Under the pieces are notes generated by a model. That model was given only the letters and a program-made list of their open reading frames with translations, made no database searches and was not told the origin of the DNA. Positions 7,272 through 57,641 of a stretch of 64,000 nucleotides of DNA are shown piece after piece. Each line of letters starts with the position of its first letter. Position 1 is the stretch's first letter. Location of the stretch: contig JANQPV010000022.1 of NCBI GenBank assembly GCA_028285305.1, positions 263,322 through 327,321 on the forward strand, written 5' to 3'. Position numbers and translations under genes: made by a program. The DNA comes from Alphaproteobacteria bacterium. Its GTDB lineage: Bacteria > Pseudomonadota > Alphaproteobacteria > SMXP01.

Positions 7272-8372
7272 ATGCTGCTAAGTTCACTCAAGGTTTCCCG
7301 CGCGGAATTCGAGCGGGAAACCGGATGGTCCCTCAAGGAAGAAGGGGCCTGTAAAGGTGACGTCTGCATTCCCATTCCCGATGCACAAAAGGGCGATGAG
7401 GTTGATGCGGCTGCATTAGCGGAGGCTATGGCATTGCCGCTCGTTAAGGCGGAGGGCCAGGACTTGTGGGCGCTGGGTCCTGAATCGATCGGGTCGCGGG
7501 CTTTGACCAGCGCGGAGGCGCCCGACTTTGCCCTGCCGGACTTGGATGGAAATCTCTTTCATCTGAGCAGTTTGCGAGGCGAAAAAGTTCTTCTGTATGC
7601 CTGGGCGCCCTATTGAGGTTGCTCGCGTGATCTGCCCGTGTGGCAGGCTTTAAGAAACGAATTGAAGCCCAAAGGCTTGGAGCTGGTGACTGTCGGTCTT
7701 GACGTTCTGGGTGCGGATGGCTGCCGCGACTTTATCGAAGCCGCCAAGCCTGAACATCCGTCGTTGATCGATACGCATCACTTGCTGGCGAATCTCTTTG
7801 GGGTGATCAACATTCCAAGTTCGATATGGATCGATGAAGACGGTATGATCGTGCGCCCGGCCGAAGCGGCGCCGGCGCCTCCTGGTCAAGCCGCAGCCAT
7901 GGACATGCCCGCGGAATTGCCCCAGCGGTTCATTGAGATGGGCGGCGAAGTCGTGAAGATGCAAGCCAGCCCGGACGCCTATCATGCGGCCTTGCGTGAT
8001 TGGGTCGAGAAAGGCGCGGGCAGCGAATTCGCCCATGATCCGGCAACGGTAATTGAGCGGTCCCGACCTCGCTCCGCCGACGTGGCCTTAGGCCATGCGC
8101 ATTTTGAGTTGGCCACGGCGCTCGAACAATCCGGCAATCACGCCGGTGCCATTACCCATTTCCGAGAAGCACACCGACTGGTGCCGGATAGTTGGACCTT
8201 CCGGCGGCAGGCTTGGTCCCTGGAACAGAACGAGGTGGCGGGCACGCCGTTAGAGCGTTTCTGGCAAGGCCCATCAGAGTCGAACCCCGAGGCATGGCCT
8301 TATGAAGGGGACTGGCTGTCCGACGTCCGAGAGGTGGGTCCGGAAAACTACAGCGAGGATTGGAAGCCGTAA
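7272..8372 (+). CDS. ResA/TlpA-like redoxin selenoprotein (WAPYUGC; in-frame TGA at 7614-7616 read as Sec)
   Basis: The two ORF-track pieces (7272-7616 and 7638-8372) share one frame. Read-through gives APDFALPDLDGNLFHLSSLRGEKVLLYAWAPY-U-GCSRDLPVWQALRNELKPKGLELVTVGLDVLG...NLFGVINIPSSIWIDEDG, a continuous thioredoxin fold with the TGA at the redox-motif cysteine position. Confidence 0.85.
7614..7646 (+). promoter_or_regulatory. candidate bacterial SECIS element (Sec UGA plus downstream hairpin)
   Basis: TGA (7614-7616) followed after 20 nt by the apical loop of hairpin CTGCC-CGTGT-GGCAG (7632-7646); loop has G in its second position. Confidence 0.65.
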
Positions 8373-13270: not shown

Positions 13271-14503
13271 ATGGGGCGGGGGCTTGCGCTCGGGATTGTG
13301 CTTGGGGTTGGGATGAGTCTCGCCCCTTTTGGTGCGCCCGCTCAAGAAGACCCTTTCGCGTTTGATTTGGCTGAAGAGGCGGCGCCTGAAGGGCCCTTCC
13401 GTGTCTCAGGATTCTTTGAGTCGCGGAACCAGCGGTTTCTGTCGCAAGACTCTTTTCTGTCCAATCGTCAGCGCGGTCAGTTGGAGCTGAAATTTACGTC
13501 CAATCTCTTCCGTCTCTTCGCCAGCGGCTATGGCGAGTACGATCCCGCTACGGAGGAGTATCGCAGTCCTTGGCGCGGCGAGGTGTTAGAGGCCTACGGT
13601 GTGTTCGATGGCCCGTCTACCGACGTCACGCTTGGCCGGCAACGCATTGCTTGGGGAACCGCGGACGGCCGCAGCACAATAGACCGGATCAACGCTGTCG
13701 ACTTTCGCGACCCGATCGGCAACGCGCGGACGTCTGCACGCTGGCCGTCTTGGGCCGCACGTATCGAACAATCGACGCCCTTCGGCATTTTGGAAGGGGT
13801 CTGGCTGCCAATTGGACGCGACCGCCGTTTGCCAGAAGAAGGCAGTCCGTGGGAGACGGATGCGCTCGCTAGCTTGCGAGCCGCCCAGACGATGGGTCTC
13901 CAACTCGACCTTGACAATCCCGATGTTCATGAAGGCGGTGTTCGGTTTTCTCACTACGGGGAGGGCTTTGATTGGAGTGTGGCCGTCTTCGATGGGCAAA
14001 CGGATTTTCCTCTGCCTGCCCTCCAAACCGCAGACCGGGTCGTCTTGAAGCCCGAACGGATCACCACTTGGAACGCGAGCGTGGCTGTTGGAAGAGCCAA
14101 GAGTACGTGGCGCGGGGAGGTGGCTTATACGCCCAACTTTCCGTTGGGATTGGGGCAGGTGAGTGATCTTACCCAAGCGATTGTGGGTTGGGATCGTACG
14201 TTCTTCAGCGATCTCTACGTAAATGTTCAGCTTTTTGTAGATGGCTTCAGCGATGCTGACGAAGAATGGGGCGGAACGTTCGCGGTTACGAACTCCTTCT
14301 TTGATGATGCGACGGAGGCGGGCGTACGCGGTCAACTCCTCAATGAAGGTCAGTATGCGGTGGAGACTTTCGCCGATTACGAATTCAATGACGCGATCAC
14401 AGTCACAGCCCGTGCCTTTGTGTTCGGCGGCAATACTGGTTCAGGGTTAGGCGAGTTTCGCGAAAATGACTTTGCGGAACTTTCGCTGAGGTATGCGTTT
14501 TGA
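13271..14503 (+). CDS. outer-membrane beta-barrel protein (DUF1302/alginate-export-like)
   Basis: Signal peptide, alternating beta strands, LGRQRIAWGTADGRSTIDRINAVDFRDP, C-terminal aromatic LSLRYAF. Confidence 0.75.
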   Translation: MGRGLALGIVLGVGMSLAPFGAPAQEDPFAFDLAEEAAPEGPFRVSGFFESRNQRFLSQDSFLSNRQRGQLELKFTSNLFRLFASGYGEYDPATEEYRSPWRGEVLEAYGVFDGPSTDVTLGRQRIAWGTADGRSTIDRINAVDFRDPIGNARTSARWPSWAARIEQSTPFGILEGVWLPIGRDRRLPEEGSPWETDALASLRAAQTMGLQLDLDNPDVHEGGVRFSHYGEGFDWSVAVFDGQTDFPLPALQTADRVVLKPERITTWNASVAVGRAKSTWRGEVAYTPNFPLGLGQVSDLTQAIVGWDRTFFSDLYVNVQLFVDGFSDADEEWGGTFAVTNSFFDDATEAGVRGQLLNEGQYAVETFADYEFNDAITVTARAFVFGGNTGSGLGEFRENDFAELSLRYAF

Positions 14504-56357: not shown

Positions 56358-57641
56358 GTGTCTCTCCGCAAAATATCTGTCGTTGGATTGGGCTATGTCG
56401 GTTTGCCGGTCGCGGTCTCTTTTGCCTCCAATGGTTTTGAGGTCGTAGGATTTGATGTTGATGTTCAGCGGATTGAGGAGTTGTCCTCTGGGTATGACAG
56501 GACTGGGGAATTGGATGATGGACGTCTTGCGCAAGCGAAGCTGAAATTTACAGCGGACGCGTCTTCCCTTCGAGCAGCTGATTTCCATATCATCACGGTG
56601 CCAACGCCGATCACCGAACAGAAGCAACCTGACCTGAGATGTTTGGCATCAGCCTCTGTGACCGTGGGGCGCGCGCTCAGGCCAGGGGACATTGTCGTCT
56701 ACGAATCGACCGTTTATCCCGGAGCGACCGAAAGCCACTGTATCCCAATTCTCGAAGGTGAAAGTGGTCTTGCTTTTGGCCGCGACTTTACAGTCGGGTA
56801 TTCGCCCGAACGCATCAATCCGGGAGACAAGGATCACCGCTTTGAAACCATCGTGAAAGTCGTTTCCGGATCCGATGAAGCGACTTTGAATGTTGTTGCC
56901 GACGTCTATGGTTCGGTCGTACGTGCGGGAATTTATCGTGCGCCCTCTATCAAAGTAGCGGAGGCTGCCAAAGTGATCGAAAACACGCAACGCGACCTGA
57001 ATATCGCTTTGATCAATGAACTTGCTCTCATCTTTGACCGCATGGATATTCGCACAAAAGACGTACTGGAGGCGGCTAAGACCAAGTGGAACTTCTTGCC
57101 GTTTGAGCCTGGACTGGTGGGTGGCCACTGCATTGGCGTCGACCCCTATTACCTTACCGCAAAGGCGGATGCGCTGGGCTATCGTTCCGAAGTCATTTTG
57201 GCTGGCCGGCGGATCAATGACGGTGTGGCCAAGCACATAGCCAACAAAGTCGTGAAATATCTGGCCAGCCACTGTGATTCGCTTCGCGATGCCCGCGTGG
57301 CGCTCTTTGGCCTAACCTTTAAAGCCGATGTGCCCGATCTGAGAAATAGTAAGTCGGCGGATATTATTTCGGAACTGGGCGAGTACGGTATTCGTTCTCA
57401 GGTTCATGATCCGCTGGCGGACGGTGCGCAAGCAAGAATGGAATATGGTTTGGAGATTGCGGATTTTGAAGGGATCCGAGATTTGGATGTTCTGATTCTA
57501 TCCGTTCCGCATGCTGCCTATTTGAATGCTGTTCAAGAGAATGTGTTCGACCGCCTCCGTGACGGCGGGCTCTTGGTCGATGTAAAATCGGTTTTCGATC
57601 CGGCTTCGCTGCCGGACTCCATCCAATATTGGAGTCTCTAA
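56358..57641 (+). CDS. tviB: nucleotide-sugar dehydrogenase (VipA/TviB/WbpA-like UDP-GlcNAc/GalNAc dehydrogenase)
   Basis: ISVVGLGYVGLPVAVSFASNGFEVVGFDVDVQRIEEL...SGYDRTGELDD...YSPERINPGDKDH...LVGGHCIGVDPYYLTAKA; GTG start. Confidence 0.92.
   Translation: MSLRKISVVGLGYVGLPVAVSFASNGFEVVGFDVDVQRIEELSSGYDRTGELDDGRLAQAKLKFTADASSLRAADFHIITVPTPITEQKQPDLRCLASASVTVGRALRPGDIVVYESTVYPGATESHCIPILEGESGLAFGRDFTVGYSPERINPGDKDHRFETIVKVVSGSDEATLNVVADVYGSVVRAGIYRAPSIKVAEAAKVIENTQRDLNIALINELALIFDRMDIRTKDVLEAAKTKWNFLPFEPGLVGGHCIGVDPYYLTAKADALGYRSEVILAGRRINDGVAKHIANKVVKYLASHCDSLRDARVALFGLTFKADVPDLRNSKSADIISELGEYGIRSQVHDPLADGAQARMEYGLEIADFEGIRDLDVLILSVPHAAYLNAVQENVFDRLRDGGLLVDVKSVFDPASLPDSIQYWSL

Follow-up and report, generated by a model that had tools for sequence, protein, structure and literature searches.

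An in-frame TGA in a ResA-like WAxxUGC gene of an alphaproteobacterial genome is very probably read as selenocysteine

In the 64,000-nucleotide stretch of alphaproteobacterial DNA analysed here (the window), mechanical ORF calling yields two open reading frames, 7272-7616 and 7638-8372, which raises the question of whether they are the remains of a damaged gene, two neighbouring genes, or a single gene in which a stop codon is translated. An earlier note on this DNA had favoured the last of these, a selenoprotein mis-split by ORF calling, and the ORF list and the read-through translation confirm the arrangement on which that proposal was built: both ORFs lie in one frame of 366 codons on the forward strand, and the TGA at 7614-7616 is its sole interruption. 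A purine-rich GAGGAG is found ~10 bases upstream of the ATG, and the residue at position 115 of the read-through protein, here taken as selenocysteine (Sec, U), appears in the context LLYAWAPYUGCSRDLPVWQ. Considering all the evidence given below, we are highly confident, on sequence grounds, that this is one intact and functional selenoprotein gene for a thioredoxin-like enzyme, and that its internal TGA specifies the selenocysteine of the active site (Table 1). Software that treats every TGA as a stop sees a pair of broken genes at this place and so misses a real enzyme.

Table 1. Features assigned to the locus, in window coordinates, and the evidence behind each assignment.
Feature	Position	Strand	Evidence
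Very probable complete selenoprotein gene, 366 aa, ATG to TAA (8370-8372)	7272-8372	+	Translation with TGA as U; NF041054 match; end-to-end alignment of homologues
N-terminal module, residues 1-80, invariant TGW...C27-x4-C32-x-P, predicted beta hairpin	7272-7511	+	Alignment; model
ResA/TlpA-like thioredoxin-fold domain, ~residues 81-196	7512-7859	+	Pfam AhpC-TSA and Redoxin; PDB sequence and fold matches to ResA
TGA as predicted Sec codon, U115 of WAPYUGC; Cys117 as partner	7614-7616	+	TGA/TAG/TGC column in 56 distinct homologous genes
Putative bacterial SECIS hairpin, U-CUGCC-CGUGU-GGCAG-G	7631-7647	+	Conservation of pairs; pairing probability
C-terminal helical region with one TPR-like helix pair, ~residues 255-318	8034-8225	+	Pfam TPR_2/TPR_14 near cut-off; model helices

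A frame split in this way is weak evidence and not significant by itself, since a script count over both strands of the 64-kb window returns about 30 TGA codons with 70 or more open codons on either side. Most of these are probably chance occurrences. The frame studied here rises above chance because homology extends to both sides of its TGA: identity to the homologue L026 is 52% upstream and 65% downstream, and the NCBIfam model NF041054 (WAxxUGC_long, 'ResA-like WAxxUGC motif-containing protein') covers both parts, residues 1-364 aligning with positions 1-352 of the 354 in the model at 500.3 bits (cut-off 300). Given this score, the full-length coverage and the WAPYUGC motif with its TGA, the gene is a well-supported additional member of a catalogued selenoprotein family, with the same motif and the same domain order and no essential difference, and it does not represent a novel kind of protein; the caution of the earlier note that WAxxUGC ResA-like proteins are not new is thus borne out. 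That the locus might hold two independent genes, with GTG 7638 as the start codon of the second, is the plain output of ORF calling, but it is extremely improbable, as homologues have both halves together and a start at this GTG, which is Val123 of the read-through protein and lies within the putative SECIS loop, would lose U115-G-C117 and the beginning of the active-site helix.

Homologues were fetched from genome collections, and for each the codon at column 115 was taken straight from the DNA. After removal of four doubly fetched loci (L009, L013, L041 and L069), 56 distinct genes were left, with TGA in 41, TAG in three and TGC in the other 12, the column otherwise being Cys and never Trp. 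Termination of all homologues at this codon, which the earlier note had listed as contrary to its proposal, is thus not what is seen; they carry TGA, a TAG matched by a CUA anticodon, or TGC, in such a way that the alignment displays either a Sec codon or Cys at this place. TGA is kept across Actinomycetota, Chloroflexota and Gammaproteobacteria, and each of the 85 listed matches above the NF041054 cut-off in one actinobacterial order, that of L032, contains exactly one TGA. This conservation already largely refutes the view of the TGA as a nonsense change, or a sequencing error, in what was once the Cys codon of an ordinary redoxin. Although TGC homologues exist and a single base change leads from TGC to TGA, the nearest independent homologues have the same TGA, conservation is no lower downstream of it than upstream, and the Sec machinery of the genome and the TAG/CUA switch of the homologues add to the case, so we regard a pseudogene as very improbable. 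A misread TGC or TGT is similarly unlikely, because the TGA and the hairpin that follows it are common to independent genomes.

The genome contains the machinery for selenocysteine insertion, for which the earlier note had recommended a search. A tRNA-Sec with UCA anticodon (C73:131130-131220, 78 bits), selA (C73:132481-133833, 587 bits), selB (C73:133878-135734, 311 bits) and a selD-like ORF adjoining the tRNA-Sec (L001:1802-2776, assigned from sequence features of its translation) cluster on contig C73. Together with the TGA, TAG and TGC homologues, these genes support the selenoprotein interpretation. Decoding itself would follow from the matching of codon and anticodon, the machinery being recognized by sequence. 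In the three genes with TAG (L038, L039 and L040), the tRNA-Sec of the corresponding genome has in all three cases a CUA anticodon (L097, L095 and L093, respectively); it was the tRNA-Sec covariance model that detected these tRNAs, at 65-67 bits, while ARAGORN labels them Pyl from the anticodon. All ten of the other TGA genomes tested show UCA. Among the genomes tested that have the TGC form, no tRNA-Sec scores above threshold in G583, and the anticodon in G408, G422 and G436 is UCA, which makes their TGC an ordinary Cys codon. The anticodon hence changes in step with the codon, a pattern difficult to account for if column 115 were not decoded by tRNA-Sec. In addition, L029 (TGA, UCA) groups among L038-L040 in the tree, indicating that the codon switched within that clade. 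UAG-encoded selenocysteine with tRNA-Sec(CUA) has been published in Geodermatophilaceae, including a redoxin-type (AhpC) example (PMC5330540), and L038-L040 resemble this system in codon and anticodon; the window gene differs from it in using ordinary TGA with UCA.

These data also bear on whether the TGA could be read otherwise, by near-cognate Trp or by general TGA recoding. General recoding is established for some genomes, but in the window TGA serves as an ordinary stop, for example in the DUF1302 gene at 13271-14503 (end ...LRYAF-TGA), column 115 is never Trp, and the genome has a dedicated tRNA-Sec, making such a reading exceedingly improbable. The pseudogene, the two genes and general recoding were accordingly rejected, given the TGA of homologues, conservation of both halves, normal TGA stops and tRNA-Sec.

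Two further TGA-containing redoxin genes were observed in this genome. One, adjoining the tRNA-Sec and the selD-like ORF on contig C73 (L001:663-1451, minus strand), is a TGA-interrupted redoxin of a second kind with the motif FYRGHWUPYC and a membrane-like N-terminus, and resembles ResA and SelL-related families only weakly, under every NCBIfam cut-off. The other is a divergent paralogue on contig C51 (L010:1366-2508, plus strand; C51:174590) with TGA in a WSSWUGC motif, 232 bits to NF041054 (below the cut-off of 300) and a position in the tree next to L034, on long branches.

Shortly downstream of the UGA the RNA is predicted to form a hairpin with a G in its apical loop, as is characteristic of bacterial SECIS elements. 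Its stem (7631-7636/7642-7647) starts 17 nt after the U of UGA and encloses the loop CGUGU (7637-7641), the pairing probability of the window's own stem being 0.99. The five core pairs are complete in 44 of the 45 rows with a Sec codon, or 43 of 44 genes when each is counted once, versus two of 12 Cys-codon genes, and the median of the mean pairing probability is 0.99 for Sec forms versus 0.05 for Cys forms; the P values of this contrast ignore relatedness, and phylogeny accounts for part of the contrast itself, the majority of Cys forms being short and only distantly related. A G occupies loop position 25 in every Sec-codon homologue. At the residue encoded across the loop, all Sec forms have Val or Gly (GTN/GGN) and the Cys forms, without exception, Ala, Leu or Ser, as though the RNA constrained the protein, and the only two Cys forms within the main clade, L031 and L035, have both lost the Val/Gly. 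An Rfam search gave no match to the hairpin. With its TGA/TAG/TGC switch, an anticodon that follows the codon and a hairpin that decays with Cys, the family amounts to an exceptionally clear natural experiment on how selenocysteine is decoded.

Regarding the kind of enzyme encoded, Pfam places AhpC-TSA/Redoxin at residues 81-195 and a TPR-like repeat at 276-313, and an AlphaFold2 model built with 44 homologues (mean pLDDT 95.2, pTM 0.93) finds its best Foldseek matches among ResA structures (2f9s, E 3e-11), superposing on 2f9s with an rmsd of 1.8 Å over 118 columns at 25% identity. In the alignment to ResA-type proteins, U115 falls on the first CxxC cysteine and Cys117 on the second, with one spacer residue fewer. 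The thioredoxin fold is thus common to this protein and the ResA/TlpA/StoA thiol-disulfide oxidoreductases, which differ from it in having CxxC instead of UGC and in lacking the additional N-terminal CX4C and C-terminal helical modules; moreover, the window protein shows no evident signal peptide or anchor, and it is not a ResA proper, scoring 63 bits with the NCBIfam ResA model (cut-off 170) and having no CxxC. No signal-like hydrophobic stretch is seen at the N-terminus of the translation, which suggests that the protein is probably cytosolic, unlike ResA/TlpA. The former assignment to the TlpA/ResA type therefore holds for the fold, but probably not for location and cellular role. The N- and C-terminal extensions that had been pointed out are likewise present, but they are not stray, as they belong to the catalogued full-length NF041054.

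Within the collection of papers searched, none has the word WAxxUGC, and those read give no established function for the NF041054 family. The closest published entries are a Global Ocean Sampling marine survey that classed UGC-containing genes as 'Prx-like (UGC-containing)' (PMC2398784) and the category 'UGC-containing TlpA disulfide reductase family protein' of a 2026 review (PMC13188914); both share with the window protein the UGC motif in an AhpC-TSA/TlpA-like domain, but are defined by the redoxin domain only, and may or may not include the long form NF041054. The class given by the marine survey, together with the Pfam AhpC-TSA and Redoxin matches, would fit a selenoprotein that works as a peroxidase of the peroxiredoxin type rather than as a disulfide oxidoreductase. 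Nonetheless, after its own family the best fold, PDB and NCBIfam neighbours are ResA/TlpA and not Prx, and the WAxxUGC layout, with a second Cys nearby, is Trx-like, so peroxidase activity appears unlikely, albeit worth bearing in mind.

The most likely role of the product is that of a selenenylsulfide redoxin in the cytosol. SelB with Sec-tRNA(UCA) would bind the putative hairpin downstream of UGA 7614 and insert Sec at residue 115, giving a Sec115-Gly-Cys117 active site in which Sec would replace the first, attacking Cys of CxxC. The selenolate might then attack a disulfide or peroxide, and Cys117 would resolve the intermediate to a selenenylsulfide with Sec115, to be re-reduced by a cellular thiol donor or by the Cys27/Cys32 pair. 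This pair, which the N-terminal module may supply as a second redox centre, is invariant in every aligned homologue containing the segment, and the module has no Pfam match, no PDB sequence relative (best E 0.05) and, when compared alone with PDB folds by Foldseek, nothing below E 0.75. It could tentatively be seen as a previously undescribed relay domain that re-reduces the Sec115-Cys117 selenenylsulfide in the same protein, which, if true, would make this a self-contained two-centre selenoredoxin. A shorter Cys-codon branch from actinobacterial genomes (L042-L051) keeps the N-terminal CX4C with a CGC active site, indicating that the module is independent of selenium use.

In the tree, the window gene joins two gammaproteobacterial sequences (100/98 for the three) inside a large set dominated by Actinomycetota. 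Within its own phylum, among 399 sampled genomes, a strong match is found only in this genome and in one other (289 bits, below the cut-off), and the window genome differs in this from its sampled relatives, the four in its own family showing no NF041054 match above the cut-off. In the order of L032's genome, by comparison, 68 of 397 are above it. The simplest reading is that the gene probably arrived by lateral transfer, most of its kin being Actinomycetota. No relative appeared in the plasmid and viral collections searched, and comparison of the window with seven homologous loci shows no conserved gene neighbour; the neighbourhood thus suggests no operon-based function and points to no pathway. 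Elsewhere in the window, where Rfam finds no tRNA at gathering score, ARAGORN calls a tRNA-Phe at 57439-57510 on the forward strand, which is probably a false call.
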